Both the position numbers and the translations under genes were made by a program. A model generated the notes under the pieces. That model was not told where the DNA came from. It made no database searches and was given only the letters and a program-made list of their open reading frames with translations. From a virus: a stretch of 20,595 nucleotides of DNA. The stretch spans positions 1 through 20,595 of the IMG/VR virus record IMGVR_UViG_3300030450_001490. The stretch is one strand, 5' to 3'. Shown here one piece after another: positions 1,880-20,595 of the stretch (its first letter is position 1; every line of letters begins with the position of its first letter).

Positions 1880-1890
1880 GCACGTTTTAT

Positions 1891-1917
1891 GGGGACTCTT
1901 CGGAGTCCTCTTTTTTT
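1891..1917 (+). terminator. Intrinsic terminator with UUCG loop after capsid gene
   Basis: An 8-pair stem (1891-1898 with 1903-1910, one G-U pair) closes a C-UUCG-G tetraloop, an exceptionally stable loop, and is followed by seven T residues (1911-1917). It begins 11 bases after the capsid stop codon. T7 has its late terminator T-phi in the same place, after gene 10, where partial read-through sets the ratio of capsid to tail transcripts. The same role is inferred here, since no new promoter is evident before the tail genes. Confidence 0.88.
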
Positions 1918-1930
1918 ATATATTAATATT

Positions 1931-2560
1931 ATGCCTTTTCCAACCACTAATGCCACTGCCGAATTACCAGCTATAAATCAGATATTGTCATCATGTGGAC
2001 AGGCTCCTGTAACCACGTTGGACACAACCAACCCTGACGTTGCGATTGCATACGATACGTTATTACAGGTATCAAAAGAAATACAATCTGAAGGCTGGAC
2101 ATTTAATAAAGAATACCATTATGAAATAACTAGAGATTCTAATAATGAAATAGTAATACCAGCTAATATGCTGCAAATTAAACTTACTGATAACTCTTCT
2201 AATTCAGATTTCGATTGCGTAAGACGTAATGGTAAATTATATGACAGACATAACCACACATATGATCTATCAAAAATATCAGGAGATAATGTTGAATGCG
2301 ATATTACATGGGAATTTGATTGGGTAGATTTACCTGAACCCATACAGAACTTTATCGTATCAAGAACGGCATCTCTTGTGTCTCAAAGAATTATAGGTAA
2401 TGCAGATCAATACCAAATGCTACAACAACAAGAAGCATACGCAAGAGCAACCGCCTTAGAATATGAAACACAACAAGGTCAATATACTTTCTTTGGACAC
2501 CCACAAGGACAGCAAAACTTCTACCAAAGCTATCAACCTTTCCAAGCACTTAAAAGATAA
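1931..2560 (+). CDS. 11: Tail tubular protein A (T7 gp11-like)
   Basis: This 209-residue protein is the gatekeeper/adaptor ring that joins the portal to the nozzle in T7-like tails (T7 gp11 is 196 residues). The N-terminal helix pair is typical of the family: AINQILSSCGQAPVTTL, NPDVAIAYDTLLQVSKEIQS, then EGWTFNKE. The C-terminal helix carries FIVSRTASLVSQRIIGNADQ. The open frame extends upstream to an ATG at 1889, but that codon lies at the foot of the terminator hairpin and would add a low-complexity peptide. The ATG at 1931 (MPFPTTNATAELPAI) gives the family-like N-terminus. There is no clear Shine-Dalgarno before it (TATATATTAATATT). The last base of its stop is the first base of the tail tube B start, so the two are coupled. 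Confidence 0.92.
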   Translation: MPFPTTNATAELPAINQILSSCGQAPVTTLDTTNPDVAIAYDTLLQVSKEIQSEGWTFNKEYHYEITRDSNNEIVIPANMLQIKLTDNSSNSDFDCVRRNGKLYDRHNHTYDLSKISGDNVECDITWEFDWVDLPEPIQNFIVSRTASLVSQRIIGNADQYQMLQQQEAYARATALEYETQQGQYTFFGHPQGQQNFYQSYQPFQALKR

Positions 2561-5394: not shown

Positions 5395-5395
5395 T

Positions 5396-6406
5396 ATGCA
5401 TCAAATGATGAATGAATTCGGTACACCATGGAATGAAGCCGAAGAAGCTATGCGTCCTAAAGGTGTAGGACATAGACTTATAGATAAAGAATTAGCAGCT
5501 AGTGGTTTAGAAAGTAACTTTTGGGAATTTTTAATTGCACCTGCAGTTGGTATTATTGGTAATATTATTGGAGGTGGAAAACAGAGAGACGCTGCAAAAC
5601 AACAAGCTCAAGCACAGAATGCTGCTACCGATTCTCAGTATAAATATGATACTGAACTTTGGGAGATGGGCATTGATAAAGTTCTTGCTGATCGTGAACA
5701 GGCTGTTAAGTCTGTAGAAATGCAAGCAGCTAATGAACAGAAATTAGCTGACTGGAAAAATGCTAGTAACTTAAATAGATATAATTATGACTTAATGATT
5801 CGTGATAAAGAACAAGCTTCTTTAGATACTCAATATGCTAAGTCAAATGAAATTTATGGTCAACAAATAACTATAAATGAATTATCTGCTAGAACTGCTA
5901 GAGATGATGAATATAGAAAATTAGAAGAAATAGAAGCTGAATCAAAATATGATCAGAATGATTCTTATATTGAAATGATTCAAGCAAAAGGACAGATGGC
6001 TGCTATAGGTTCATCTGGACGAAGTGTTGCTAAAGGTAAACAATCCACACTTGCAGACTACGGTACGCAAGTACAATTGTTCAATAGATCTCTTACTGGT
6101 GCTCAATCTGAAATGCGTTCAGTAATGAGAGAAATAGCACAAGATAAAACATCAGCAGATTTAGCTGCTTATGGAGCTAAAATGTTAGACCCTGGTATAT
6201 TACCAGATCCAATTCAACCCTTACCTACACCTGTATCTGATTTCCTATACCCTAGAGAAATAGGACAGTATGATTTCGGACCAGCACCTGTAGCAGGAGT
6301 ATATCACTCTCCACAGGCTGCTGCTAATCAAGTATGGGGTACAACTATAACAGGTATCGCTGGCTCAATAGCTAGTGGTATTAATACATATCTAACTACA
6401 CCATAA
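5396..6406 (+). CDS. Internal virion protein (T7 gp14-like)
   Basis: Position and make-up match the first ejection protein of T7-like phages, which leaves the head at infection and forms a pore in the host outer membrane. The 336-residue product has one glycine-rich hydrophobic segment (FWEFLIAPAVGIIGNIIGGG, residues 42-61), then a long charged Gln/Ala/Glu-rich helical region (about 62-250) with IQAKGQMAAIGSSGRSVAKG in it, a proline-rich joint (DPGILPDPIQPLPTPV), and a weakly hydrophobic end (TITGIAGSIASGINTYL). It is larger than T7 gp14 (196). An AAGAGG-type Shine-Dalgarno at 5383-5388 sits well placed for the ATG at 5396, one base after the upstream stop. Assignment rests on synteny, the membrane segment plus coiled-coil design, and the two large proteins that follow, not on strong residue identity with T7. 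Confidence 0.85.
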   Translation: MHQMMNEFGTPWNEAEEAMRPKGVGHRLIDKELAASGLESNFWEFLIAPAVGIIGNIIGGGKQRDAAKQQAQAQNAATDSQYKYDTELWEMGIDKVLADREQAVKSVEMQAANEQKLADWKNASNLNRYNYDLMIRDKEQASLDTQYAKSNEIYGQQITINELSARTARDDEYRKLEEIEAESKYDQNDSYIEMIQAKGQMAAIGSSGRSVAKGKQSTLADYGTQVQLFNRSLTGAQSEMRSVMREIAQDKTSADLAAYGAKMLDPGILPDPIQPLPTPVSDFLYPREIGQYDFGPAPVAGVYHSPQAAANQVWGTTITGIAGSIASGINTYLTTP

Positions 6407-6408
6407 CT

Positions 6409-9039
6409 ATGGGAAGAAATAGAAAAACCTCTTTAAGATTCGCTAAGGGCGGTCAATTTAAAAGAGAGGATTTTGGTGATCTTGGCTTAGGAGCCTTCAA
6501 GAATCAACAGAATCAAATTATAGATTCTATTAAATTACAACAGTCTCGCCAAAAAGAATATGACTCTGAGTACGCTCAGGGTCTTGGTAATGTGGCTCGT
6601 AATGAAGTACAGAATCAAGAAACTTTGAATTCTCTTGAGAATAAGATTTACCAAAATAAAAAAGAAGCTATTCAAAATAGAAAAAGAACTGAAGTTCAAA
6701 AACATCAAGATCAAGCAAGGATCTATGAAAAAGAAGCTGCTTATTGGAAAGAATTAACACCTAAAGCTTCTAAGAATTTTGCTGCCTTAGCTAAGGGTTC
6801 TTGGGATTTAGCTGATGATATAATAAGTGATAAAGCTTTAAAAGAATTAGATGAGAATGGTGGATTAGCTAGCCTTATAGCAAATGAAGAAGAGACTGAG
6901 GCTAAGATAACTAATAATATAACTTTAGATACTAAAAAGAATCAAGATAATCCTGAAGTAGCACGTACATTAAGAAAACAAGGATCTTTATTTCATACTA
7001 AATTCTCAAAAGTTGTTTCTAAAAGAATACAAGATAATAAGAAATATATTGAGGGTAAGATAAGAGAACTAAATCCTGACTTAACTCATACAACTGCTCC
7101 AGGTGTATATAAAGATTTTGTCAAAGGTATGCTAACAGAAGCTGGTATTAGTAATAGGACAAAAGGTTATAAGGATGCAATGGATTTAGCAGCTTCTATG
7201 GGGAATGCTAAATCAATAGAAATGAAATTAGATTGGGATGTAATAGAAGATAAAAAAATTGTGACAGGAAAGCTAGAAGAGCATCTGGGAAATATAAATG
7301 GTAATCATTTGTCACGCTCTGCTACTTACAATGCTTTAGTAGAAGCAATTGATGCTCAAACTCGTCCTGGTCAATACGGAGGACTACCACAAAGAATGAA
7401 TGATCGTGGTGGTTCTAATTTATCAGCAGCTTCTGTACTTGCTAATAAGTTAATAGCAGCTCAAGAAGGTATTAATACTAAGAAACTATTTAATAGTATG
7501 ACATATGATCTGGATACATTAAGTGAACCAGGTGCTAAACCTATTACTTGGCAAGACAGGCATGGTATTAATAATGATCCTCTTAATAAAGATATCTGGT
7601 TAAAAAAGGTTGAAAAAATGAAAGCAGCAGCAGCTGAAGTAGTTGAAACTGATCAATTAAAAGTTAATGGAGATATAAGAGCTAGACTAAATTCTGAGAA
7701 TGAAAACTATATTGATATCAAAGATCCTACTGATAATTATGCAGGTAGAAGAGAACTGATACATCTACTACAACAAAATAAAGATAATCTTTACTTAAAA
7801 GATTTATGGAAAGATGTTGTGTATGCTCCTAAGAGTACAGTTCCTTGGGTTACCCAAATGTTCTTACAGCAAGATGCAGAGAAGGGTAATTGGAGATCAT
7901 TTAATTCCCGTTGGTCTAGTTTAAGCCAGGTAGAACAAAATGCTATGGCTGGACTACATGATAAACTTCAAGCAGTTCAACAGATTAAAGGTAAGGGTGA
8001 TGTTACTAAACTTATAACAAAGAAAGCTACAACAAAGATTAATAGCTTTGATAAACTAAAATCTACCAATAGTGCAAGGCATGATTCAAATGCAGATGCT
8101 ATCAAAGCCTATGAAGTTAATGTTTGGAATAACTTTTTCTCTGAAAAATTAACTAAAGAGTTCACTGATGCATCTGAAAGATTAGAGGAAGCTTTTAAAA
8201 TAACTAATCAACTAGTAGATGACGGAGCACAGGGAGTAGGAATCTTTAGAAGAGGAGATCCTGTTGAAGAAGGCGGTGCCATGATATGGTTAAATTGGCA
8301 TGATGAAGATCATGGAAAAGAAGTAGAAATGAGCCTAGACTGGATGCATCAGAGAGCCGTTGAAAATGGACATACTTGGGAAACATTTAAAGAGAACATG
8401 ACAAGATTCATGACTAGTCCTAATTTAAAAGACGGTTCATATGCGGAAATTCAGCATGGTGAGGGTTTCGGTTATATTGTAGAGAATGATGAAATAGATA
8501 TAGCTTATAGATCTTTAGAAAGTGGACGCCCATTACCTGGTAATAAAAATATAACAAGATTATCCCAGCTTTATAATATACCTGAACATCAAGTATGGAA
8601 TGATTTATTTAATTTAGGTACTAAAGGTACAGGTAAAGGAGATTATCAATTTATTGTTAAACCAAATGCTGCAGCAGAAGTAGAAAGAAAAGCTAAAAAT
8701 ATTAAATGGGAACTACCTGGAGAATTTAGTAATGTAGATAAAGTATCAGCTGGTGTTGCATTAGACATATATAATGCTACAGGATCTATTCCTATGAAAC
8801 CATATATAAGAAAATGGTGGGGAGGAAGAGAACCTAATCCAGAATATGAAGCATACTGGAATCCAGATCAATCTATACTGGAAGGTCTTTCAACTGACCA
8901 TGGTTTGACATATGAATTATTAGAAAATAATAATGTTAAATTTGATAATACTATTGAAGCTATTAAAAGATTAGATAAAGAGTTATCTGGTTATTGGTTT
9001 GACTGGAGAACTGGTGAATTTGTACCTTATCCTTCTTAA
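6409..9039 (+). CDS. Internal virion protein (T7 gp15-like)
   Basis: This 876-residue, highly charged and mostly helical protein lies between the gp14-like and gp16-like genes, the place of gp15 (747 residues), which forms the middle ring of the internal core and, after ejection, the periplasmic tunnel. The basic N-terminus (MGRNRKTSLRFAKGGQFKRE) leads into a long Gln/Lys/Glu-rich coiled-coil-like region (residues about 35-120). No signal peptide or membrane span is visible. I see no catalytic motif. The start is two bases after the upstream stop with no Shine-Dalgarno. Codon use is strongly AT-biased. The assignment comes from position, size and composition. Confidence 0.85.
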   Translation: MGRNRKTSLRFAKGGQFKREDFGDLGLGAFKNQQNQIIDSIKLQQSRQKEYDSEYAQGLGNVARNEVQNQETLNSLENKIYQNKKEAIQNRKRTEVQKHQDQARIYEKEAAYWKELTPKASKNFAALAKGSWDLADDIISDKALKELDENGGLASLIANEEETEAKITNNITLDTKKNQDNPEVARTLRKQGSLFHTKFSKVVSKRIQDNKKYIEGKIRELNPDLTHTTAPGVYKDFVKGMLTEAGISNRTKGYKDAMDLAASMGNAKSIEMKLDWDVIEDKKIVTGKLEEHLGNINGNHLSRSATYNALVEAIDAQTRPGQYGGLPQRMNDRGGSNLSAASVLANKLIAAQEGINTKKLFNSMTYDLDTLSEPGAKPITWQDRHGINNDPLNKDIWLKKVEKMKAAAAEVVETDQLKVNGDIRARLNSENENYIDIKDPTDNYAGRRELIHLLQQNKDNLYLKDLWKDVVYAPKSTVPWVTQMFLQQDAEKGNWRSFNSRWSSLSQVEQNAMAGLHDKLQAVQQIKGKGDVTKLITKKATTKINSFDKLKSTNSARHDSNADAIKAYEVNVWNNFFSEKLTKEFTDASERLEEAFKITNQLVDDGAQGVGIFRRGDPVEEGGAMIWLNWHDEDHGKEVEMSLDWMHQRAVENGHTWETFKENMTRFMTSPNLKDGSYAEIQHGEGFGYIVENDEIDIAYRSLESGRPLPGNKNITRLSQLYNIPEHQVWNDLFNLGTKGTGKGDYQFIVKPNAAAEVERKAKNIKWELPGEFSNVDKVSAGVALDIYNATGSIPMKPYIRKWWGGREPNPEYEAYWNPDQSILEGLSTDHGLTYELLENNNVKFDNTIEAIKRLDKELSGYWFDWRTGEFVPYPS

Positions 9040-9044
9040 ATATT

Positions 9045-12000
9045 ATGCCTAGTCATTATGATGATGAGAAGGATCAGCTGCCTTCTATAACACCCCAACA
9101 ACAAGCTGAAACTCAAACAACTGAGTTTACTGAAAACGTACCAGAATCTAAACCAACTCCTGATGTTCAACAACAGATGGATGACCAGTATAATGAATGG
9201 TATAATATGGATCGAAATGATCCTAATAGAATTAAAAAGAAAGAACTCTATTACCTAGAACACTACGGTAAAACCTTAGATGAAATAAAAGAAGATGAAC
9301 GAAATACTGGTGGATTCTATCCTGGAGCTAATAACTTAATTGGGAATCTAAATAACACATTTAGAGGGTTATCAGTGCCTGGTATAGCTATGACTGATTT
9401 CTTTATGGATGCAGTTGGTAATTTACCTGGTGCAGCACCTATAGATAATTGGTATGATAGGAAAACAGAATTTGATGATCCTAAACTTCAAAAGATTAGA
9501 AACGTTCTTTCAGTTGTACTGCCTTCTATATGGGCTGGTGGTGCTGTTACTACTCAGTTAGGTAAATTGGGGCTTGCTAATGCTCCTAGATTAACACAAG
9601 TAGCTACAGCTATTGGTGCATATGGTGTTACAGATGCTGCTATTATAGGTCTTAGTGATGAAGGATATGAAAATACTATCACTCAAGCTATGGCAGAAGG
9701 GTTCCCTGGTGTCTTTGGTCCAAAGGGATGGCTGCCAATACCTGAATGGGCTAGAACTTTAGATGGTGATTCTCCTGAAGTAAGGAAGTATAAAAATATG
9801 CTAGAGAATACTGTTTTCTCTGGAGCTGCTACAATGCTAGGAGCTTGGATTGAAATCAGTAAAGGTGCTAAAGGTTTATCTTGGTTCCAACCATTAGATA
9901 ATACAGCTGCAGCATATAAAACTAGAGAACTATCAAGAGCTTCTGATCCAGATAAACTCATTCGTATTCAAGAAATTAATAATGCTTTAACAACAAAGAA
10001 ATTATCTAGAAAAGTTGAAGCCCAGTTAATAGATGAGTTAGAAACATTAAAAGACTCAATGGGCGGTATAGATAGTTTTGAAGAAGCTTTAAGACAACAA
10101 GAAGTTTCTGCTGCTAGAGAAGTAGATGAAGCTGCTAAAGGTAAAATAGCTAGAGGTGATGTAACTCCAGATAAGTTTGATCCTGATGTAACTCCTATAT
10201 CACAGAATACAAAACCTGATGTACCTCCAGGTAATGTAGCACGTAACCAAGCAGATGTTGCTGCTATTAAAGCTGGACAATCAACTGGTGATCCTGCACC
10301 TGTTATAACAGAATCTATGAGAAATAAGGGTCTAATGGTAGGCTCTACTTCACGTGATGCTGTTATGGGTGTAGCAGAACAAGCAAGAGATTTAGGTAGA
10401 TTTGATGCTTTAGTAAATGGATTCAGATTCACTAAAAAGAGTATGGATGCACTTGCCTTTGATGTCTATACAAGCATCATAGCTGCAGAAAATATGGATG
10501 ACCTAAGAGGTTTGTTCTTAGATTATAAAGATACTAAAACACTTCTTTCTGGTAAATTAAAAGTAGAATATATTACTGAAGAGCAAGCTAGAGGTGCTGC
10601 ATTTGCTATGCGTGATCTAGTTGATAGATTCTTAGGAAGAGATATTGCAATGAATTCTGCTAGGGTAATGGATACCATGGGTAGAGAAGCTGCAACATTA
10701 GCCGAAGCTGTTCAAGATCTAAAACCTTTTATGGATGATCAGAAAGGAATGGATCTTGTTATTGATAAGCTTCAATTCTTAATGGATGAGTATGCTCTTA
10801 ATAAATATATTTCTGGTTGGCAACTTAAAAATAAAGATTGGGCAGATGCTCTCCCTCCTGCAGACTTTGAAAGTACTATTAAAACACTTACTCAGGAATT
10901 CAAGAAAGGAGAGAATAAAATACATCTGGCTAATTTAAAATTAACTAAAGAACTTAAACAATTAGCTAAAACTAATCCATTAGCTATGCGTCCTTTAATG
11001 GATGCCTTTGCTTATACTAAAGGTGATGTAGATAGTTTAGCTAAATTAATGAGATGGGCATCAGATCAGATATCACCAAAAGGAATGATTATAAGTCCTA
11101 ACCCAAGAGAAATGAATCTCTTTGCTAGGAATGCTTTCGGTGTAGTATTTAATAATGTATTATCTGGTTTATCTGCATTTAGGGCAGGATTAGATGTAAC
11201 TGCTAAATTAACTCTGAGACCTATTACTCAAATAATGGGTAGTGCTTTATGGGGTCCATTAGATGGATTCGATTCATTCAGAAGAGCCATGTATTATAAT
11301 GGTGCTATGTTTGAAACTAATAGACGAGCACTTACTGACGCTTGGAGTATGATGAAGAAAGCTCATCAAGATCCAGAACTAATGCTTAAAGCATATAGAA
11401 AAGACTTAGCAATTAAAAAAACAGATACTGCTAAGTGGGATCTAATGGAGCAGATGAGACCTGTTTGGGAAGCAGAAGGTAATAATGGTAAGATAATGTT
11501 ACTTGATTCTGTTATTGGTATGAGGGACTTAGCTAGAGCCCCTTGGATGCGATATGGTATGACTGGTCTTACTGGACCCGATGCTTATGCATGGACTCAT
11601 GTAGCACACCAATTATCTAGAATAAGAGCTTATGATGATGTATTCTCTGAATTTGGTTTTGCTGATTGGAAGAAAATAGCTATAGCTGAAAAGAAACATT
11701 ATAAAAACTTCTTTGATGAAAATGGTTTAATTAAAGATTCAGCATTAAAAGGTATCTCTGGTGAAATAACACTTAACCTAGATGATAGAGTAGCGTCTTG
11801 GCTTAATCAAGCTACTACTGCTGTACCTATATCTAGACATATATTCATGTTCCCTAGAACACAGAGTAATGATCTTAAACATGCTTTGTCTTGGACTCCT
11901 CTTCAAGTTATACCAGGGTTACAAACCAAATATGGTAAAACTATATGGGCTAGAACTGATGATGAAATAGCAGCTGCATTAGCTGAACATGGTGCCAGTA

Positions 12001-13145
12001 TAAATGATGTTGGTGCTAAACATTTATTTGAGAACTTAAGGAATGAATATATAGGTCGTGTAGCCTTTGCTGCTGGTCTATCTAAACTTCTTTGGAACTA
12101 TGCTCTAGATGGTAATATACGTGGTAATGGTCATTATAGTCCAGACCGTAGAAAGAAAGAAAGAGATCAAATGGGTTATATCCCTAAAGAAATAAGAATA
12201 GCTGGTAAATGGGTGCCTTATCAAGGAATACCAGGTGTAGAGCAGGCATTATCTACTATAGGAGATTTAGCATACTACGCTGCCGATATAGAAGAGCCTA
12301 TGTTAGCTAATTGGTTTGATAAATTAACATGGTCTTTAGCTGCTAACTTCTTAAATGAGACTCCTTTACAAAGTATAGAACCATTAATTGCTGCTATAAA
12401 TAATGAGTTAGGACAGTGGAATAGACTTGTAGCTAATACAGCTAGATCTTATATACCAAATAGTAGTGCTTTAGGGGTATTAGCTGATGCAATATCTACA
12501 AGTCAGAAAGATATTCAAGGTGAAATCTGGGAATACATGGCAAATAAGCTTCCTTTCGCTAATATGATGTTAGATGAAAGAATTGATATTTGGACAGGTG
12601 ATCCTATTAATGATATACATGATCCATTTGCTAAAATTATTCACTCTGTTACTAAGGTTAATGTAAATCATACTGAAGAACCTTGGAGAGTATGGTTACG
12701 TAACACAGGATGGAATGGTCTTCATAAGTTAAATAAAGATTCTTCTGGCTCATATGAGTATAGTACTGCTGAACGTAAACTTATACATAAATATATGGGA
12801 GAACAGAACATGTCTAAGAAGATAAAGAAATTGATGAATAATAAAGAATTAAATAAGCAAATGGGTCAATTAAGATTCCATCGTGCTAGTGGATCAGATT
12901 TAGAAAATGACAAAATTAAACTAGATTCTGATGATTTACCAGTTATTAGTGAGATTAATGAGATAGTAAAAGATGCACAATGGATAGCAGAGCAAAGGTT
13001 ACTTAATGATAGACCTGATATTGCTAATATTATTTTACATCAAAGCTTAACTAATGATGCAATGAAACGTGGTGATGTAACTAGAGCTGCGGAATTACAA
13101 AAAAAAGAATTAGAAACTAGACAATTATTACAAATGGCTAAATAA
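9045..13145 (+). CDS. Internal virion protein, ejectosome (T7 gp16-like), no transglycosylase domain seen
   Basis: At 1366 residues this is the largest protein of the window, close to T7 gp16 (1318), the core protein that is ejected into the host envelope and helps pull DNA in. T7 gp16 opens with a lytic transglycosylase domain. Here the N-terminus is an acidic, Gln/Pro-rich, apparently disordered stretch (residues 1-60) with no such motif. Hydrophobic, membrane-active-looking segments follow at about 150-205 (NVLSVVLPSIWAGGAVTTQL; TAIGAYGVTDAAIIGL) and 692-740 (AFGVVFNNVLSGLSAF). The rest is helical, including MRDLARAPWMRYGMTGLTGP, which looks conserved-core-like. It starts five bases after the gp15-like stop, with TAAATATTATG context and no Shine-Dalgarno, and ends in a charged helix. 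Synteny and size make the assignment firm; lack of the enzyme domain is by eye only. Confidence 0.88.
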   Translation: MPSHYDDEKDQLPSITPQQQAETQTTEFTENVPESKPTPDVQQQMDDQYNEWYNMDRNDPNRIKKKELYYLEHYGKTLDEIKEDERNTGGFYPGANNLIGNLNNTFRGLSVPGIAMTDFFMDAVGNLPGAAPIDNWYDRKTEFDDPKLQKIRNVLSVVLPSIWAGGAVTTQLGKLGLANAPRLTQVATAIGAYGVTDAAIIGLSDEGYENTITQAMAEGFPGVFGPKGWLPIPEWARTLDGDSPEVRKYKNMLENTVFSGAATMLGAWIEISKGAKGLSWFQPLDNTAAAYKTRELSRASDPDKLIRIQEINNALTTKKLSRKVEAQLIDELETLKDSMGGIDSFEEALRQQEVSAAREVDEAAKGKIARGDVTPDKFDPDVTPISQNTKPDVPPGNVARNQADVAAIKAGQSTGDPAPVITESMRNKGLMVGSTSRDAVMGVAEQARDLGRFDALVNGFRFTKKSMDALAFDVYTSIIAAENMDDLRGLFLDYKDTKTLLSGKLKVEYITEEQARGAAFAMRDLVDRFLGRDIAMNSARVMDTMGREAATLAEAVQDLKPFMDDQKGMDLVIDKLQFLMDEYALNKYISGWQLKNKDWADALPPADFESTIKTLTQEFKKGENKIHLANLKLTKELKQLAKTNPLAMRPLMDAFAYTKGDVDSLAKLMRWASDQISPKGMIISPNPREMNLFARNAFGVVFNNVLSGLSAFRAGLDVTAKLTLRPITQIMGSALWGPLDGFDSFRRAMYYNGAMFETNRRALTDAWSMMKKAHQDPELMLKAYRKDLAIKKTDTAKWDLMEQMRPVWEAEGNNGKIMLLDSVIGMRDLARAPWMRYGMTGLTGPDAYAWTHVAHQLSRIRAYDDVFSEFGFADWKKIAIAEKKHYKNFFDENGLIKDSALKGISGEITLNLDDRVASWLNQATTAVPISRHIFMFPRTQSNDLKHALSWTPLQVIPGLQTKYGKTIWARTDDEIAAALAEHGASINDVGAKHLFENLRNEYIGRVAFAAGLSKLLWNYALDGNIRGNGHYSPDRRKKERDQMGYIPKEIRIAGKWVPYQGIPGVEQALSTIGDLAYYAADIEEPMLANWFDKLTWSLAANFLNETPLQSIEPLIAAINNELGQWNRLVANTARSYIPNSSALGVLADAISTSQKDIQGEIWEYMANKLPFANMMLDERIDIWTGDPINDIHDPFAKIIHSVTKVNVNHTEEPWRVWLRNTGWNGLHKLNKDSSGSYEYSTAERKLIHKYMGEQNMSKKIKKLMNNKELNKQMGQLRFHRASGSDLENDKIKLDSDDLPVISEINEIVKDAQWIAEQRLLNDRPDIANIILHQSLTNDAMKRGDVTRAAELQKKELETRQLLQMAK

Positions 13146-13151
13146 CATACT

Positions 13152-15779
13152 ATGGCTGTTACACAAAACTCATACGTTGGGAACGGGTCTACCACCACCT
13201 ATTCCTTTACATTTCCATATCTTAAGTCTGCAGATATAAAAGCTCAAATTGATGCCACCGTAACAACAGCTTTCACCCTTCCAACTGCAACGACATTACA
13301 ATTTAATACTGCGCCAGGTAATGGCACCAAAATCAAAATATACCGAGAAACGAGTGACGATGCGCTTACAGCTACATTCTATGCAGGATCAGCTATTAAG
13401 TCGGAAGACCTGAACGATAACTTCACACAGAACTTATATTCGACACAAGAGATTAGTGCTAGATATCTAAGTAACCTTGGTGGTACCATGGTCGGAGATA
13501 TGACTATGGCAGAAGATGTAGATGTTATATTTGAAGGAGCTACAGATGATGCTTATGAAACAAGATTAACAGTAGTTGATCCTACAGCTGATAGAACTAT
13601 AAGCTTACCTAATGAGACAGGTACAGTATTAACGACTGGTAGTACTGGAGCTGTAACCTCATCTATGATAACTGATGGTACAATTGCTACAGCTGATATA
13701 GCTAATGATGCTATAAACGGAACAAAGATAGCAGATGATTCTATTGATTCGGAACACATAGTTGCTGATTCTATAGATGCAGAGCATTATGCAGCTGGGT
13801 CTGTAGATGCTACAGCTTTAGCAAGTAATGCAGTTACTACTGCAAAGATTGCAGCTGATGCTATAGATGGTACTAAGATTGCAGATAATGCTATCAATTC
13901 TGAACATTATACTGATGGTTCAATAGATACTATTCATATTGCTGATGATCAAATAACAGCAGATAAATTAGCTAATACAGCTGTAACTGCTGGATCTTAT
14001 ACTGCTGCTGATATTACTGTTGATGCACAAGGTAGATTAACTGCTGCTGCTAGTGGTACTGTAGGTACTTCTGAGATTGCAGCTGATGCAATTACAAGTG
14101 GATTAATAGCTGATAATGCCGTAGGAACTGAACATATTGCCGATGCTGAACTCACAACGCTTGCTGGTATGCAGTCAGGTACTGCTTCTGTCTTGGCGGG
14201 CGGGACTGCTCTTGCTGCTACTCTTACTGAAATTAATACAGTATGTGACGGTAAAGGCGTTCACACAACTATATCAGACAGTGATGCTCACTACCCAACT
14301 TCAGGAGCTGTTGTTGATTATGTTAGTACTCAGCTTGCTACAGTAGGTGGTTTTGAAACTATCACTACTGATGCTGCATTCCCTAACACACAACCAGCTA
14401 GCGGTATTATAGTTAGTATTGCAGATGCTGGAGGACTTGTTGTAAATGGATCTGGTGTTAGTACTACAGGTAGAACTGTAGGTGGCTCAACTGTAACTAT
14501 TAATGGTATAAATTCTCAATTCTATAGCAAAACTGTTGCAGCTGGTGTTGCTATGATGGTTGAGTCTACTGGTTCAGGTCAGATATATAACTACCATAAA
14601 GCTACACTTAAAGAAGCAGACTTAATCAATTTAAGTACTGATATAGAAGACTTTGGTAATAGATATAGAACAGCTACTAATAGAACATCAGATGGAGACT
14701 CATCTAATGATGATGGAGATTTATTCTATGATCAAACTGCCAATAAAATGTATGTCCATGATGGATCTACATGGGGTGAAGTAGCATCTACAGGTGAGTT
14801 TAAATTACTATTCTTATGTCCTGCAGGTGGTACAGGAGCACCAACTCTTGACGGTAGTATTGCTACATATGACTTAAGAGAAGCTAGTAATTCAGGTGCA
14901 GTTGCTGATGTAAGTGTTGCAGCACAATTACTTGTTAGTATAGATGGTGTTATACAGAAAGCTAATACTGGTACTAGTGCGCCTGCTGAAGGCTTTGCAT
15001 TAGTAGATACGAATACAATTATATTTGGTGCAAACTTAGCTAGTGGTTCTAGTGTATTTATAGTACAGATAGGTTCTTCTGTAACAGTACCTACCCCTGG
15101 AGATAACTCAGTAACTACAGCTAAGATAAATACTGGTGCTGTAACTAATGCTAAGATAGCTGATGATACTATAGATGAAGCTAAATTAGATATACATGCA
15201 GCTCCTACTGGTACTGATAAATTCCTTAAATATACCTCTAATGGTATGGAATGGGTCGTACCTAGTTATACAACTAATACTAATACTCAACTAACAGAAG
15301 AGCAGGTAGAAGATTTTGTAGGAGGTATGGTCACTGGTAATACTGAAACAGGTATTACAGTAACCTATGAAGACGGTGATGGTACATTAGATTTTGTTAC
15401 TGAAGTCACGCTTGCTGGTGCTAATACATTTACTGGTGTTAAAACCTTTAATGCTGCAGCTATTGGTGAAGTAACTACTATTACTTCTTCAAGTAATTCT
15501 ACAGCTTTAGATTTATCTGGAAGTAATAATTTCCAAATAACTTTAGGTGAAAATAGTACTGTTGCTCAACCTACTAACCAAGTAGCTGGTCAATCTGGAT
15601 CTATCTTTGTAACACAAGATGGTACAGGTTCTAGAACTTTAGCATATCATGCTGACTTTAAGTGGGCTGGAGGTACTGCACCAACATTATCAACAGCTGC
15701 TAACTCTGTAGACAGAATAGATTATGTAGTTGCTGCTGCTAATAAGATACATGCAGTAGCTAGTTTAGATGTGAAGTGA
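13152..15779 (+). CDS. 17: Tail fibre protein with T7 gp17-type head domain
   Basis: This 875-residue protein is the primary receptor-binding fibre. Residues 1-105 are the T7 gp17-type head that docks onto the tail: YVGNGSTTTYSFTFPYLKSA, TLQFNTAPGNGTKIKIYRET, then AGSAIKSEDLNDNFTQNLYS, equivalent to the gp17 DGSILRAYDLNVAQIQ segment. Residues 171-280 are degenerate shaft repeats. A GC-richer ELTTLAGMQSGTASVLAGGT module follows near 336, then a domain with DGDLFYDQTANKMYVHDGS (about 520-540), a second short repeat patch (652-685), an FLKYTSNGMEWV linker, and a C-terminal beta domain (about 770-875) with GQSGSIFVTQDGTGSRTLAY. Beyond the head no similarity to T7 is visible, as expected for a modular fibre. 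Codon composition shifts from mixed to strongly AT-rich after about 13500. Confidence 0.9.
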   Translation: MAVTQNSYVGNGSTTTYSFTFPYLKSADIKAQIDATVTTAFTLPTATTLQFNTAPGNGTKIKIYRETSDDALTATFYAGSAIKSEDLNDNFTQNLYSTQEISARYLSNLGGTMVGDMTMAEDVDVIFEGATDDAYETRLTVVDPTADRTISLPNETGTVLTTGSTGAVTSSMITDGTIATADIANDAINGTKIADDSIDSEHIVADSIDAEHYAAGSVDATALASNAVTTAKIAADAIDGTKIADNAINSEHYTDGSIDTIHIADDQITADKLANTAVTAGSYTAADITVDAQGRLTAAASGTVGTSEIAADAITSGLIADNAVGTEHIADAELTTLAGMQSGTASVLAGGTALAATLTEINTVCDGKGVHTTISDSDAHYPTSGAVVDYVSTQLATVGGFETITTDAAFPNTQPASGIIVSIADAGGLVVNGSGVSTTGRTVGGSTVTINGINSQFYSKTVAAGVAMMVESTGSGQIYNYHKATLKEADLINLSTDIEDFGNRYRTATNRTSDGDSSNDDGDLFYDQTANKMYVHDGSTWGEVASTGEFKLLFLCPAGGTGAPTLDGSIATYDLREASNSGAVADVSVAAQLLVSIDGVIQKANTGTSAPAEGFALVDTNTIIFGANLASGSSVFIVQIGSSVTVPTPGDNSVTTAKINTGAVTNAKIADDTIDEAKLDIHAAPTGTDKFLKYTSNGMEWVVPSYTTNTNTQLTEEQVEDFVGGMVTGNTETGITVTYEDGDGTLDFVTEVTLAGANTFTGVKTFNAAAIGEVTTITSSSNSTALDLSGSNNFQITLGENSTVAQPTNQVAGQSGSIFVTQDGTGSRTLAYHADFKWAGGTAPTLSTAANSVDRIDYVVAAANKIHAVASLDVK
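13662..13990 (+). repeat. Degenerate shaft repeats in the tail fibre
   Basis: About 110 residues are built from short repeating units on the pattern D-x-I-D/N-x-x-K/H-I-A-D. Examples are NDAINGTKIADD, DSIDSEHIVAD, DSIDAEHYAAG, DAIDGTKIADN, NAINSEHYTDG and GSIDTIHIADD. Units are 9-12 residues with drifting DNA sequence, so the repeat is clear in protein but weak in DNA. Such repeats usually build trimeric beta-helical shafts; that structure is inferred. The same motif recurs at residues 652-685 of this protein and in the short fibre-like gene at 18699. Confidence 0.8.
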
Positions 15780-15780
15780 T

Positions 15781-18243
15781 ATGGGAGTATTAAACGATAA
15801 TATACGAATGGGCGCCAGTGCGGCTAGTGCCTATGAAATAAAAAAATCTTGTAGATTTGACTTTGATAGTTCTACATACATGGAACGTACAGTTTCAAGT
15901 GCTAGTAATCGAAGAACTAATACTATTAGTGTTTGGCTTAAACGATCACAATTAGGCAATAAATCTGGCGATGATGCTCAAACTATTTATGGTGCTGGAG
16001 GTGGAGGCGGTGGCTCTTCATCAACTTCTCTATATATACTTACGGATGGTCGTATAGGTCTTTTGACTATGATCGGTAGTGTACATGGTCATCTTGTAAC
16101 TACTGCGGTTTTTAGAGACCCAGCACAGTGGTATCACGTTGTTGTAGTATTTGATACTGAAAACGGTACATCAGGTGATAGGATGAGGTTATATGTTAAT
16201 GGAGTTAGAATTACAGCTTTTGGTACTGAAACTTATCCAAGTCAAAATCAAGATACATATTTACATTATACAGATAAACATGGTTTAGGAGCTAATAGAA
16301 TTTGGGCTGATCAATCACAAATATATAACTATTATGGTGGTTATATGGCTGAACTACATGTTGTTGATGGATCTGCTTTAACACCAAGTTCTTTTGGTGA
16401 AACAAATGAAACTACAGGACAATGGATTCCTATAGAATATACAGGATCACATGGTACAAATGGATTCTATATGGACTTCTCCAATGCTTCTTCATTAGGA
16501 GATGATGCAGCAGGAAGTAATGACTATACAGAAAGTGGTTTTGCAACTAATGATTCATTTAAAGATACTCCAACTAATAACTTTCCAGTTTTAAATCCTT
16601 TAAATAATGATCCCTATGATTCAAATTCATATACTCCTGCAACCATAAGCAATGGAAATCTTCAATTTACATCAAATACAACTTCTCTTAGCAATTACGC
16701 TGAAAGTAGTATTTATTTTCCAACTTCTGGTAAATGGTATGTTGAAGTTACCGCCAGTAATGTAAATATTGCGTCTAGTGGTTATGCAGAGATTAACATA
16801 GCTGGTTATTATCTTTGGTGGTATTATTCTTCTCCTTATTATCAACTAACCACAGACGGCGGGGCACAAACTATAGGTGCTATTTCAAATAATGATGTTA
16901 TACAGGTTGCTTATGATGTTGGTTCAGGAAAGATTTGGTACGGAAAAAATAACACTTGGTATTTAAGTGGGAATCCTTCAGACGGAACAGCAATGTCACC
17001 AGCACAATCAGCTTCTAATACTGATGGTTCTGTAAAACTACATTTAAAAGGAAGATCGGGAAGTGCTGCGAATATCTTACATGTTAATTTTGGCCAACAA
17101 GATTTTACTCATACACCACCAACAGGATTTAAAGCATTATGTACAAAGAATCTACCTGAACCAACAATTACAAAAGGTACTGATCATTTCGGTACTTTAT
17201 TATATACAGGATCTGCAAGTGCTCAAGTTGTTAATGGATTAGATTTTACTCCTGATTTATGGGTTAATAAATATAGAGAGGGAAATTCCCATGTACTTTG
17301 GATAGATAGAGTAAGAGGATTTAATGCTCAAACTCAAATGCTTACCTCTATATATACTTCACCAGAAGGTGGTGAACGAGGTGATCTTTATGGTTATCTA
17401 ATTTCTGCAGCTGGTGGTTTTCAACATCAACCAGGTAGTAGTTCAGGAAACGAATACGCACAAATGAACTCTAGTGGAGCCAAATTTCTTACCTGGTGCT
17501 GGTTAGCAGATGGTACTTCTGGAAGTAGCAATGATGATGGAGATATAACATCAACAGTTAGTGCTAATACATCAGCTGGGTTCTCTATTGTTAAATATAC
17601 AGGAACAGGAACAGATTCAGATACAGTTGGTCATGGATTAGGTGTTGCACCGCAATTAATTATAATTAAACGAAGAGACGATGGATCTGGTAATACAAAC
17701 TGGCGTGTTTGGCATACAGGTATTCCTGCTAATACCCATTTAGAACTAAACAGTACTAGTGGACAACAAACATCACCAGCAGGTATATTTGATAGCTCAA
17801 CTCCTCCTACAAGTACAGTATTCAGACCTAATGATCATGTTTCGGTAAACGCATCAGGAGGTACTTATGTTGCTTACTGTTGGTCAGAAGTAGCAGGTTA
17901 TTCAAGTTTTGGTACATATGCAGGTAATGGAAGTACAGATGGACCTTTTATTTATACTGGATTCAAACCAGCTTGGCTTTGTGTAAAACATTATAATAGT
18001 AGCGGATCTGAACAATGGCAAGTCTTTGATAATGTTAGAGATACTGACAATGTTAATGTAACTAGTACTACATTAGGATCAAACCAACAAGAAGGTGTTG
18101 ATACTGGAGGAGATAAAATTGTTGACTTCCTTTCTAATGGTTTTAAATTTAAAGGAGGAGATGGAGTTCTAAATGATGGAAGTTTAAATTATATTTATTG
18201 GGCTTTTGCCGAAACACCTTTTAAATATGCTAATGCGGAGTAA
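15781..18243 (+). CDS. LamG- and SPRY-containing adhesin / tail-fibre-like protein
   Basis: This 820-residue protein begins one base after the fibre stop. Domains by eye: residues 20-215 a LamG/concanavalin-like jelly roll (TISVWLKRSQLG; WYHVVVVFDTENG; RMRLYVNGVRI near 140), about 300-445 an SPRY-like fold (GKWYVEVTASN at 316; VAYDVGSGKIWYGKNNTWYL near 376-395), a junction (DFTHTPPTGFKALC), then three related units starting near 469, 600 and 707, each with a YTG/YAG turn, a hydrophobic P-x-L-x-x-x-K strand and a W-containing strand. It ends in YIYWAFAETPFKYANAE. LamG and SPRY domains bind sugars or proteins, so a receptor-binding role on the virion surface is inferred. It has no T7-type head domain, so it would have to attach through another protein. 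It could be distal fibre material or a separate spike. Confidence 0.8.
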   Translation: MGVLNDNIRMGASAASAYEIKKSCRFDFDSSTYMERTVSSASNRRTNTISVWLKRSQLGNKSGDDAQTIYGAGGGGGGSSSTSLYILTDGRIGLLTMIGSVHGHLVTTAVFRDPAQWYHVVVVFDTENGTSGDRMRLYVNGVRITAFGTETYPSQNQDTYLHYTDKHGLGANRIWADQSQIYNYYGGYMAELHVVDGSALTPSSFGETNETTGQWIPIEYTGSHGTNGFYMDFSNASSLGDDAAGSNDYTESGFATNDSFKDTPTNNFPVLNPLNNDPYDSNSYTPATISNGNLQFTSNTTSLSNYAESSIYFPTSGKWYVEVTASNVNIASSGYAEINIAGYYLWWYYSSPYYQLTTDGGAQTIGAISNNDVIQVAYDVGSGKIWYGKNNTWYLSGNPSDGTAMSPAQSASNTDGSVKLHLKGRSGSAANILHVNFGQQDFTHTPPTGFKALCTKNLPEPTITKGTDHFGTLLYTGSASAQVVNGLDFTPDLWVNKYREGNSHVLWIDRVRGFNAQTQMLTSIYTSPEGGERGDLYGYLISAAGGFQHQPGSSSGNEYAQMNSSGAKFLTWCWLADGTSGSSNDDGDITSTVSANTSAGFSIVKYTGTGTDSDTVGHGLGVAPQLIIIKRRDDGSGNTNWRVWHTGIPANTHLELNSTSGQQTSPAGIFDSSTPPTSTVFRPNDHVSVNASGGTYVAYCWSEVAGYSSFGTYAGNGSTDGPFIYTGFKPAWLCVKHYNSSGSEQWQVFDNVRDTDNVNVTSTTLGSNQQEGVDTGGDKIVDFLSNGFKFKGGDGVLNDGSLNYIYWAFAETPFKYANAE

Positions 18244-18245
18244 AA

Positions 18246-18698
18246 ATGGCATTTAAACTAGACGGAAAAACATTACCAGTTGATGTCGCCTTTACATCAG
18301 CAGGTATAAATTACCCAGCGAATTGGTTACGACTAACTACGTTGGATGAAAAAAAGGCAATAGGTATAACAGAAGTAGCTGATCCAGCTAAATATGATGA
18401 ACGTTTCTATTGGGGTGTAGATGATCCTAGAGATCTTACACAACTAAAAAGAACTTGGTTACAGATCCAGAAAAATACTGCAGATACTTTATTATCTAAA
18501 TATGACTGGTATGTAACACGTAAAGCTGAGAAAGGTACAGAGATACCTGATACCATACAAATCTATAGAGATGGTGTTAGAACAGCTTGTAATGCTAGAG
18601 AAGTACAAGTAAATGGTTGTAATAATGTAGATTCATTGAAAGCATACGCTGATGGAGAATTCACTCCTTGGCCAACAGACCCTAATGGAGAATTATAA
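18246..18698 (+). CDS. Tail-fibre assembly chaperone-like protein
   Basis: This 150-residue protein lies two bases after the LamG adhesin, with GGAG five bases before the ATG. The N-terminal half holds LDGKTLPVDVAFTSAGINYP and WLRLTTLDEKKAIGITEVAD followed by YDERFYWG. The second half carries WLQIQKNTADTLLSKYDWYV and a K-x-E-x-G-x-x-I-P-x-x-I-x-x-YRDGVR stretch, the pattern seen in small phage tail-assembly chaperones (R-x-x-x-x-LL-x-x-x-DW, then IP and YR-x-x-x-R). These proteins usually lie next to the fibre they help fold, which fits its place between two adhesin genes. Assignment is by pattern only; a structural virion protein is the alternative. Confidence 0.6.
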   Translation: MAFKLDGKTLPVDVAFTSAGINYPANWLRLTTLDEKKAIGITEVADPAKYDERFYWGVDDPRDLTQLKRTWLQIQKNTADTLLSKYDWYVTRKAEKGTEIPDTIQIYRDGVRTACNAREVQVNGCNNVDSLKAYADGEFTPWPTDPNGEL

Positions 18699-19169
18699 AT
18701 GGCACTAACACAAGTCAAAGCATTAGGTTTAACAGCTGATGCTATTGATGAAACAAAAATTGCTGATGATGGTATAGATTCAGAACACTATAATGATGGA
18801 TCTATTGATGAAGCTCATATAGCTGATAACCAAGTAAGTCTTGCTAAGATGGCAGGACTTGCTAGAGGTAAGATCATTTATGGTAATGCTTCTGGAGATC
18901 CTACAGCACTTGCTATAGGTAGTTCTGGGACAGTATTGAAATCCGATGGTACTGATGTATCATGGGGTGATGCTGCAGCTGGAGCTACAGGTGGAGGAAC
19001 TAATAAAATATTTTGGGAGAATGGAACAACAATAGATTATAACTACACCATAACTAATAATAAAAACGCCATGACTGCTGGACCTGTTGAGATTGCTGCT
19101 ACTGGAAACGGTGACGGCAGTGCTGTAGTAGTGACAGTAGGTGATGGCGAAACTTGGACAATCGTATAA
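18699..19169 (+). CDS. Short tail-fibre-like protein sharing the main fibre's shaft motif
   Basis: This 156-residue protein starts directly after the preceding stop; GGAG at 18687-18690 is a well-spaced ribosome site. Residues 12-50 contain DAIDETKIADDGIDSEHYND and GSIDEAHIADNQ, the same repeats as the main fibre shaft (KIADNAINSEHYTDGSID). Next come ARGKIIYGNASGDPTALAIG and GTVLKSDGTDVSWGD, a linker common in marine phage fibres, then a Gly/Ala-rich turn and a small beta-rich end (ATGNGDGSAVVVTVGDGETW). It lacks any head domain. It is likely a short accessory fibre or fibre-tip subunit. Shared shaft repeats suggest that it is derived from, or assembles with, the fibre encoded at 13152. Confidence 0.7.
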   Translation: MALTQVKALGLTADAIDETKIADDGIDSEHYNDGSIDEAHIADNQVSLAKMAGLARGKIIYGNASGDPTALAIGSSGTVLKSDGTDVSWGDAAAGATGGGTNKIFWENGTTIDYNYTITNNKNAMTAGPVEIAATGNGDGSAVVVTVGDGETWTIV

Positions 19170-19172
19170 ATT

Positions 19173-19679
19173 ATGGCAATAACAATTAATGGAAACGGTA
19201 CTGTCTCAGGTATAACCGCTGGATTAACAGCAGCAGCAATGCCAACAGGATCAATTATCCAGGTATCAGCTCAAGCATATGATTATACTTCAAGAACACT
19301 TACTTCGACTAGTTATGTTAAACTTACTACAGATTTGGATGTTACGATAACTCCAACAGCTAGTAATAGCAAGATTTTACTTTTAGGTCAAGTGTCTTTT
19401 GGAATGAATTATTCTGATGATAGTCAAGGTTTTGCAGTATTCAGAGATAGTACAGAACTTAAAGGAATTGCAGTTGCTGCTGCAGAATCTACTAATAATA
19501 ATAAGGTTGGTATGACTGGCTTTTCTGTATTAGATGCTCCTGGTGATACAAGTGCTCATACATATAGTATTTTTGGTAAAGTTGCAAGTGGTTATGAGCT
19601 TTACTTAAACTATGCACCAGGTTATGGTAATCTTGTTACTGCTGGTACGTCATTAATAGCTTTGGAGGTAGCAGGATGA
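19173..19679 (+). CDS. Small adhesin-like protein A (EVAG paralogue)
   Basis: This 168-residue protein has an N-terminus of INGNGTVSGITAGLTAAAMP followed by a beta-rich domain: TSTSYVKLTTDLDVTITPTA, NSKILLLGQVSFG, FAVFRDSTELKGIAV, then PGDTSAHTYSIFGKVASGY and the end SLIALEVAG. The same domain order and end occur in the next gene, so the two are paralogues. Small domains of this kind are common in marine phage fibre cassettes and are presumed distal receptor-binding modules. No Shine-Dalgarno precedes its ATG. Its last codons carry one for the next gene and the genes overlap by four bases (ATGA). Confidence 0.7.
   Translation: MAITINGNGTVSGITAGLTAAAMPTGSIIQVSAQAYDYTSRTLTSTSYVKLTTDLDVTITPTASNSKILLLGQVSFGMNYSDDSQGFAVFRDSTELKGIAVAAAESTNNNKVGMTGFSVLDAPGDTSAHTYSIFGKVASGYELYLNYAPGYGNLVTAGTSLIALEVAG
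19664..19669 (+). promoter_or_regulatory. Shine-Dalgarno inside the EVAG tail, for the 19676 gene
   Basis: GGAGGT, a consensus ribosome site, lies six bases before the ATG at 19676 and is also part of the codons for the final L-E-V-A-G of the upstream protein. It fixes the start of the next gene and implies translational coupling. Most other genes in the window lack such a strong site. Confidence 0.75.
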
Positions 19680-20317
19680 CATTAAAACTAAACGGCTCCT
19701 CATCAGGGAGCGTATCAATAGATGCTCCTGCTAGTACAACAGGTGGAGCAGATGTAACATTGAAACTACCTGTAGCAGATGGTTCAGCTAGCCAGTTATT
19801 AAAAACAGACGGTAGTGGAAACCTTGGATGGGGAACAGGTGGAAAAATTGTTGATATTAAGCAAGCGTTTAAAACAGATTACTTTACCTCATCGAGTACA
19901 TCTTATGTAGATATACCAGGCTTAACCATTACGCATACTCTTGCTGATAGTTCTAATAAATTATTACTTACTTTCCATGTTGTTATGGGTGCTGCTTGGT
20001 GGAATGCTAGTGTAACTTTTATTCAATTATTAAAGGATAGTACAGCTATTGCTGTTCCAACGCAATCAGGTCTAGATTCAGGTCTTACAGGTACTTCAAT
20101 GGCTTGTAATTATTCTAATAATGCTAATAATTCATCAGTGAACGTAAGTTTGATTACAGCTTCTTATTTATATACACCTGGCGATACAAGCTCTCATACT
20201 TATAAACTTCAAGGAAAGGTTTCAGGTGGCGCTTATAATTTCCGTGTTAACGGTGTTGAAGGTTACAGCACATATGGAGCAACAAGTACCTTGACTTTAA
20301 TGGAGGTAGCAGGTTAA
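19676..20317 (+). CDS. Small adhesin-like protein B (EVAG paralogue)
   Basis: This 213-residue protein starts in the ATGA overlap with its paralogue. The N-terminal 55 residues differ from protein A: MTLKLNGSSSGSVSIDAPAS, then VTLKLPVADGSASQLLKTDG and GNLGWG, the LLKTDG-x-G-x-x-x-W linker frequent in phage fibres. From residue 70 the domain parallels protein A: SSTSYVDIPGLTITHTLADS, NKLLLTFHVVMG, FIQLLKDSTAIAV, PGDTSSHTYKLQGKVSGGAY, and the end TLTLMEVAG. A shared fold with different loops suggests duplication followed by diversification of the binding surface. A receptor-binding role is inferred from context. Confidence 0.72.
   Translation: MTLKLNGSSSGSVSIDAPASTTGGADVTLKLPVADGSASQLLKTDGSGNLGWGTGGKIVDIKQAFKTDYFTSSSTSYVDIPGLTITHTLADSSNKLLLTFHVVMGAAWWNASVTFIQLLKDSTAIAVPTQSGLDSGLTGTSMACNYSNNANNSSVNVSLITASYLYTPGDTSSHTYKLQGKVSGGAYNFRVNGVEGYSTYGATSTLTLMEVAG
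20302..20307 (+). promoter_or_regulatory. Shine-Dalgarno inside the second EVAG tail, for the 20317 gene
   Basis: GGAGGT is placed nine bases before the ATG at 20317, which overlaps the upstream stop as TAATG. It lies in the same codons (M-E-V-A-G) as in the preceding paralogue, within an identical 12-base string GGAGGTAGCAGG. Confidence 0.72.
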
Positions 20318-20595
20318 TGGATCACGATGCAATTTTTAAAGCTTATCCTTCTATAGTCACTTTTGATGATTCATTTAAAACTTATGGATTAGATAAAGAT
20401 GGTAATAAAGTAGATATAGCTCAATCAAATATAGATGCAGCAAGGGTTACCTTGAATAATGAAGCAACAGCTACTAAATATCAAACAGATAGAGCTGATG
20501 CTTATCCTCCTTTAGAAGATCAATTAGATATGCAGTATTGGGACAAAAAGAATGGTACAACAACTTGGGTCGATGCCATTGCTAAAGTAAAATCA
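20317..20595 (+). CDS. Tail-fibre assembly-type protein, 5' part (runs off the window)
   Basis: The frame opens at the TAATG overlap and stays open for 93 codons to the window edge. It begins MDHDAIFKAYPSIVTFDDSF, continues through a charged helix (NIDAARVTLNNEATATKYQ), and reaches AYPPLEDQLDMQYWDKKNGT with TTWVDAIAKVKS at the edge. The YPxxxDQLDxxYWDKxNGTTxWxxAI signature is common in small proteins beside tail-fibre genes of marine phages, often annotated as tail-assembly or fibre-associated. It probably ends soon after the edge. It is not evidently paralogous to the 18246 gene, but the two together bracket the small adhesins. Confidence 0.65.
   Translation, partial: MDHDAIFKAYPSIVTFDDSFKTYGLDKDGNKVDIAQSNIDAARVTLNNEATATKYQTDRADAYPPLEDQLDMQYWDKKNGTTTWVDAIAKVKS

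Follow-up and report, generated by a model that had tools for sequence, protein, structure and literature searches.

The window, by which we mean the whole 20,595-base virus record analysed here, has a gene order that looks T7-type structural. A tail fibre N-terminus of the T7 type (PF03906) was found in a single gene among the seven proteins scanned, and the Pfam scan gave no such domain in ORF1 or ORF2. This fibre gene is followed by a gene for a DUF7483 protein, and two smaller genes of the window ORF list precede the pair ORF1-ORF2. Near the other end of the record, an open-ended ORF (2-337) upstream of a capsid-like gene has a signal-peptide-like start and resembles a small outer-membrane barrel protein. 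The features used below are as follows.

13152-15779: gene with the PF03906 fibre N-terminus (E 1.8e-14)
15781-18243: DUF7483 protein (Pfam scan)
19173..19679, + strand: ORF1, 168 aa, type A N-terminus (MAITINGNGTVSG) and C-terminal TNF/C1q-like head; putative tail adhesin (ORF list, PHROG 6942, identity to ORF2, HMM set)
19663..19783, + strand: junction block, ORF1 tail and N-terminal part of ORF2 (DNA identity to relatives, codon comparison)
19664..19675, + strand: dual-coded tail 1, last G of TTG plus GAG GTA GCA GG (EVAG), exact 12-mer
19676..19679, + strand: ATGA, ORF2 start over ORF1 stop, 4-nt overlap
19676..20317, + strand: ORF2, 213 aa, type B N-terminus (MTLKLNGSSSG) and C-terminal TNF/C1q-like head; putative tail adhesin (ORF list, marine phage relatives, head model)
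19844..20314, + strand: ORF2 head domain (modelled region), jelly roll (AlphaFold2 model, closest solved fold 9ib7)
20302..20313, + strand: dual-coded tail 2, last G of ATG plus GAG GTA GCA GG (EVAG), exact 12-mer
20315..20319, + strand: TAATG, ORF2 stop and ORF3 start, 1-nt overlap
20317..20595, + strand: ORF3, small protein of PHROG 9114 that runs off the record end; putative fibre-assembly factor (PHROG 9114, next-gene clusters)

ORF1 ends in LEVAG and ORF2 in MEVAG, with the common coding string GGAGGTAGCAGG. ORF1 finishes with TTG GAG GTA GCA GGA TGA and ORF2 with ATG GAG GTA GCA GGT TAA; the ATG codons that follow lie at 19676 and 20317, respectively. A preliminary description of this DNA had reported an identical EVAG string that holds a consensus Shine-Dalgarno (SD) site for an overlapping next start, and both tails bear this out: GGAGGT lies 6 nt before the ORF2 start (19664-19669) and 9 nt before the ORF3 start (20302-20307). 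Two sequence features of coupled gene pairs, a 4- or 1-nt stop/start overlap and an SD in range, are present at these junctions.

The SDs of the two adhesin junctions are the strongest matches before any of 13 window genes; for eight of these genes, the 20 nt upstream contain no SD-like 4-mer. In this the adhesin junctions differ from most window genes at 734-19173, which lack any SD-like sequence over the same distance before the start. The exact 12-mer occurs nowhere else in the window on either strand. With up to two mismatches there are three matches against 0.82 expected, which taken alone is weak evidence because 5 of 100 shuffles reach three. Given window codon usage, the probability of GAG-GTA-GCA is 0.033 at a given EVAG end and 0.0011 at both. 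RNA folding around both junctions gave no clear pattern.

Adhesin family, fold and array order

ORF1 and ORF2 are distant paralogues with a C-terminal TNF/C1q-like jelly-roll domain, being 32% identical over 167 aa in the C-terminal part. In an AlphaFold2 model of the ORF2 head (71 sequences, mean pLDDT 87.7, pTM 0.84), the tail forms the last strand (model residues 148-155, TLTLMEVA). The nearest solved folds are the TNF-like lectin PLTL (9ib6, 9ib7; Z 15.4, rmsd 2.0 and 128 aligned for 9ib7_A) and the N-terminal domain of BC2L-C (2wq4, Z 14.8), with C1q heads at about 10-11. All 30 PDB chains that match the model at E <= 0.001 are TNF-like lectins or Pgp3. PLTL and BC2L-C share 16-20% sequence identity with the phage heads, the likeness being one of predicted fold. 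Neither ORF1 nor ORF2 matched a Pfam C1q or TNF family at E <= 1, and one relative, Lederberg_5, carries the depositors' annotation C1q-like. ORF1 also matches PHROG 6942 (tail fiber, E 3.9e-10), and fold and position together suggest that both proteins act as adhesins.

The match of ORF3 to PHROG 9114 (2e-17) places it in a family that is annotated as of unknown function and that is the most frequent gene after adhesins in the next-gene clusters. One of six ORF3 relatives scanned (L035) matches the tail assembly chaperone PF16778 at E 3.2e-14; the window's own ORF3 has no Pfam chaperone match. A model of another relative (L012) has a pLDDT of 95.7, and its best PDB match is no better than E 2.1.

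Relatives of the adhesins are present in phages of Pelagibacter, Prochlorococcus, Synechococcus, Methylophilales, and Limnohabitans. One of the latter, Limnohabitans phage DC33 (L090, PQ492659.1), is classed as Inoviridae, yet it has 39 kb and an adhesin of this family, and its taxonomy looks wrong. The view that the tail is both a protein end and a ribosome-site sequence holds beyond this genome, as the arrangement is common in relatives. EVAG, which had been proposed as the conserved end, describes ORF1 and ORF2 correctly and proves too narrow for the family: the general form of the tail in relatives is E-[V/I]-A-[A/G], and among abutting genes EVAA (n = 85) is commoner than EVAG (n = 55).

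By N-terminus, adhesins can be assigned to type A (MPITLNGSGT-like), type B (MSQLKL.. or MTLKLNG..), or type C (MATLNTTNIKHASS-like). Arrays of two to four abutting adhesins are common (73 chains), the usual next gene being a further adhesin or the small gene of PHROG 9114. The 101 steps in these chains comprise 54 A-B, 27 B-C, one B-B, one A-C, and no A-A step, with an unassigned type in 18, where the types were defined by motif after the sequences had been seen. An independent single-linkage clustering placed neighbours in the same class in 5 of 97 cases. Overlaps also differ by step, with ATGA at 50 of 54 A-B steps and TAATG or TGATG at 23 of 27 B-C steps. As far as these sequences go, the N-terminal types succeed one another within the arrays in a fixed order, A-B or A-B-C, and the window follows it with A, B, and the small gene. 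Copies per genome, which the preliminary description had proposed to count, range from 0 to 6 in the 49 records searched, many of them fragments. Its idea that such arrays grow by the addition of copies fits poorly with the near absence of same-type steps.

Codon choice in the tail

Loci were collected by protein search, from annotated phages, and with two DNA patterns, the source of many of the genes, that do not specify the third base of the Glu codon. The first tail list and alignment A1 required Glu by regular expression, so that Glu invariance in A1 is by construction. The counts given here use an HMM without the last ten alignment columns, which gave 435 domain ORFs; 377 were kept after removal of 54 duplicates and of ORFs on two loci repeating the window.

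Among the 286 genes in which the next ATG overlaps the stop (283 scorable), 265 encode the tail Glu as GAG and 18 as GAA. Where a next start was identified at least 12 nt away, GAA is found in 25 of 31 genes and GAG in 6; this count requires an identified start and leaves out nine 'TAG AACTG' cases in which a non-ATG start probably abuts. Inside the domains, 185 of 898 Glu codons are GAG (20.6%, earlier ORF set). On these three figures, one synonymous base tracks whether the next gene abuts in the sequences compared, and the DNA-level constraint beyond the protein that the preliminary description had expected is borne out. Relatives that encode the Glu otherwise, which had been regarded as potentially fatal to the idea, exist, for the most part where an abutting gene is lacking.

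Before any subclass is set aside, the 59 genes without an abutting start (57 scorable) comprise 28 with GAG and 29 with GAA. The smaller groups are genes with an abutting ATG that opens only a short ORF (n = 17; GAG 16, GAA 1), genes with a close start (n = 12, 11 scorable; GAG 6, GAA 5), and genes at a contig edge (n = 3; GAG 3, GAA 0). For 265 of 283 GAG in abutting genes against 25 of 31 GAA in genes with a start at least 12 nt away, a Fisher test gives an odds ratio of 61 (p 5e-20, an optimistic value as the sequences are related). When the genes are clustered at 70% identity, 243 GAG and 17 GAA clusters remain among those that abut, and abutting genes give 66 GAG and 4 GAA in the protein-based loci alone and 13 GAG and no GAA in phage isolates. 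GAG is found at 60 of 63 junctions with a next adhesin via ATGA, at 41 of 41 with an adhesin via TAATG or TGATG, at 73 of 76 with the small gene via TAATG or TGATG, and in 1 of 21 genes before a spacer beginning CA.

The contrast is also found within genomes. In 28 records with both kinds of gene, 50 of 68 within-record pairs combine an abutting GAG with a spaced GAA, none shows the reverse, and the remainder are GAG/GAG (n = 14) or GAA/GAA (n = 4). In cyanophage P-SSP7, gp37 and gp38 have GAG and gp39, which is followed by a spacer, has GAA. The Lederberg array reads GAG, GAG, GAG, GAA, with a separate AAGGAGG downstream of the last gene.

Fifteen of the 18 abutting genes with GAA have no SD-like 4-mer in range. 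In four loci with GAA and a near start (L092, L139, L061, L201), the tail is E-I-G-A and a GGAGC supplies GGAG one step on. A related observation is the tail E-I-G-G of L057:3365 (GAG ATT GGA GGT, TAATTATG), in which two glycine codons rebuild GGAGGT. The group with a TATAATT element keeps GAG in 18 of 18 genes despite a next long gene about 35 nt away, and the abutting ATG is lost in three of them. The Val and Ala codons GTA and GCA are uniform in spaced genes too, and part of the tail DNA conservation is therefore not explained by the SD.

Two further elements were noticed downstream of adhesin genes. In 19 loci (e.g. L184, L106, L123, and L151), a conserved element CTATCTnnTATAATTAAGGAAAAAC(A)CTAT(T)ATGG lies between the adhesin and the small gene. 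A role as promoter or ribosome site is more likely for it than a mini-ORF, as the mini-ORF start is not conserved; a conserved relay peptide MAISYN was considered and rejected, the ATG being lost in L247, L285, and L281 with the surrounding DNA kept. In nine loci (L031:7131 (P-SSP7), L238:1497, L218, L145, L149, L233, L242, L246, and L291), the stop after the adhesin is ATAG and the frame from the overlapping ATA reads a conserved IELPTIKLP or IELPTIVIP. The first NTG codon after this overlap comes no earlier than codon 31 in L238 and L218. In P-SSP7, the annotated start at this junction is a TTG two codons further on, and relatives begin with ATG or GTG. The overlapping ATA, which lies behind a strong SD, is a candidate AUA start codon.

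Exchange of head domains

Shuffling of adhesins, which the preliminary description had also envisaged, does take place. It is the head domain that is shuffled, however, between an N-terminus and a tail that both stay fixed, and not the whole gene. In 54 gene pairs from 30 loci, the N-terminal part and the downstream DNA are at least 88% identical, whereas the head between them differs. For 53 of the 54, the point at which identity resumes lies at -40 to -12 nt relative to the stop. Anchored at the stop, head-replaced pairs are no more alike than unrelated pairs up to about -24 (0.25-0.47 vs. 0.29-0.50), slightly more alike at -24 to -13, and clearly so from the stop on (0.96 vs. 0.48). Because the tail is about 85% identical even between unrelated heads, crossovers cannot be placed inside it.

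The converse arrangement, a common head (at least 85% over at least 240 nt) with unlike downstream DNA, was found in 13 pairs, where the match begins near -445 to -546 and ends within 7 nt of the first base of the stop. In the clearest case, that of L123 and L252, the heads are 95.5% identical over 110 aa with unlike N-termini; taken in 30-nt windows, DNA identity stays at 87-100% between about -450 and the stop. One of these genes ends in TTG GAG GTA GCA GCA TAATGG, the other in ATG GAA GTA GCA GCT TAACAA before a spacer. Among heads at least 60% identical in different contexts, with the subclasses still included, an abutting GAG is paired with a GAA apart in 23 cases and with a GAG apart in 18, and an abutting GAA with a GAG apart once. 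Heads at least 70% identical also cross the N-terminal types, in 19 of 87 pairs (A-B 11, A-C 4, B-C 4). L123 and L252 and the other common heads that carry GAG or GAA by place show that head and tail come apart and that the tail codon goes with position, not with the head.

The junction block of the window (19663-19783) has 88-97% DNA identity to seven loci (L001, L036, L002, L052, L050, L045, and L053) and lower identity, from 72%, to others, and it is kept where the heads on both sides differ. Over codons 1-36 of the ORF2-type gene, 163 of 184 fourfold sites agree with the window in those ten loci whose upstream gene matches as well, compared with 285 of 420 in that upstream gene. This conservation is only suggestive, because all 26 other loci together give 323 of 440 in the ORF2-type gene.

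Interpretation and relation to known systems

We propose, with a probability of about 0.74, that these genes form an ordered adhesin operon. Each protein is built of an N-terminus particular to its array position, a TNF/C1q-like head that can be exchanged, and a conserved last strand, Met/Leu-Glu-Val/Ile-Ala-Ala/Gly, whose codons double as the SD site of the next gene, with its ATG overlapping the stop. As the strand is usually Met-Glu-Val (ATG GAR GTN), one synonymous base suffices to make (GAG) or remove (GAA) the GGAG. GAG is kept where a neighbour abuts, and the base otherwise drifts to the usual GAA. Ribosomes finishing one adhesin would then start the next adhesin or the PHROG 9114 gene by termination-reinitiation, so that array members may be made in set ratios. 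Such coupled translation is suggested by the known behaviour of overlaps of this kind, as far as PMC10666635 covers it. Heads are swapped from phage to phage and from one array position to another, probably by recombination with its right-hand end in or beside the tail, which would leave the ribosome site in place whatever head is installed. Tail, SD, overlap, codon switch, order of positions, and head replacement are seen in the sequences themselves; coupling, adhesion, and a role of the tail as recombination seam are inferred from them. A more tentative idea, possible but on balance doubtful, is that the tail is a built-in exchange seam. Needed both as protein strand and as ribosome site, the tail block would be fixed and would provide shared right-hand homology, with the slot-specific N-termini providing the left, and a cross-genus pool of heads could fit any slot.

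Other explanations account for parts of these data. Ordinary packing of a compact phage genome, in which an overlapping successor forces an SD into the last codons and the EVAG tail just happens to occupy that stretch with no special link to adhesins, agrees with the finding, in the portion of PMC10666635 available, that overlaps with the SD in the upstream gene are common in prokaryotes, and some other abutting pairs in these loci do have a strong SD. It is unlikely here, as the adhesin junctions stand apart from their surroundings. GGAG or AGGAG is in range at 234 of 268 adhesin overlaps (221 of the 234 at the commonest position for the overlap type) compared with 114 of 472 (24%) other overlapping ORF pairs in the same loci, which have it at scattered positions; since the other pairs are mechanical ORFs including spurious ones, the difference should be read as an upper estimate. 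Where other abutting genes have Glu among their last six codons, it is mostly encoded by GAA (126 vs. 69 GAG), and the majority of the window genes have no SD. Descent alone, with A and B genes inheriting GAG and the last gene GAA without selection on initiation, would explain why GTA and GCA are uniform in spaced genes as well and why spacer-type genes, which seem in the majority to be one marine podovirus lineage with a common spacer, have GAA in 20 of 21 cases. It too is improbable, as the codon varies with abutment within a type: GAG is found in 63 of 66 abutting against 8 of 18 separate type B genes, and in 19 of 20 against 4 of 12 type C genes. Moreover, GAA in spaced genes is also found outside the spacer group (Lederberg, L096, L256, and L038), and the codon before the tail Glu shows the same bias: for residues that can be encoded with or without a final G, 48 of 57 such codons end in G, compared with 6-16% G-ending codons for L, T, V, and A in the domains.

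The preliminary description itself had favoured a plug-in arrangement in which the tail travels with the whole gene, an imported or duplicated copy is coupled automatically, and arrays grow by copying. The many arrays of abutting adhesins and the up to six copies per record are as this would predict, but like neighbours are rare, the tail codon of genes with common heads goes with position, and head boundaries fall at the domain start and the tail rather than at gene starts. In addition, those inspected among 103 candidate whole-gene insertions between near-identical phages proved to be heads matching in another position. Growth by whole-gene copying thus appears unlikely, and the ordered operon with exchangeable heads is the reading we retain.

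Coupling by overlaps and modular fibres are already known, as are C1q-like genes with hypervariable heads, the latter according to the available part of PMC3909814. Termination-reinitiation pairs, as described in the accessible portions of PMC10666635 and PMC12548453, have the same 4-nt and 1-nt overlaps with an SD near the upstream stop. Unlike in those pairs, the SD here lies at fixed residues of a conserved strand in hundreds of genes, where coupling would follow by analogy, and a synonymous base tracks the presence of the neighbour. C1q-domain receptor-binding proteins were placed in metaviromic islands of marine phages with an under-recruited head, and the pelagiphage genes likewise adjoin the tail fibre and have a conserved N-terminus and a hypervariable head (available part of PMC3909814). 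The same part mentions neither such a tail nor a ribosome site, and neither an order among N-terminal types nor heads exchanged from one array position to another, and the words 'tandem' and 'duplicat' are absent from the text of PMC3909814.

The closest parallel in gene arrangement is that of the tandem fibre genes gp37, gp38, and gp39 of P-SSP7, which share the A-B-C order, ATGA followed by TAATG, and GAG-GAG followed by GAA; these genes are annotated only as tail fibre or uncharacterised proteins. Modular adhesin exchange also occurs in T4-like phages, where conserved motifs flank variable receptor-binding segments, and we know of no ribosome-site role for those motifs. The tail, the synonymous switch at a head-exchange seam, and the ordered types were not found, by title and abstract start, in the searches made of open papers in PubMed Central.

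These arrays offer a natural and countable case of one DNA stretch serving both protein structure and translation control, with a built-in control, since a silent base turns the signal on or off in the same protein tail. They also allow a prediction from sequence alone of which tail genes should be co-translated, and provide a concrete rule by which abundant marine phages could change putative receptor-binding heads with the operon intact. If the tail does act as an exchange seam, marine phages of different genera would use a common pool of heads, leaving the expression of the next gene undisturbed.
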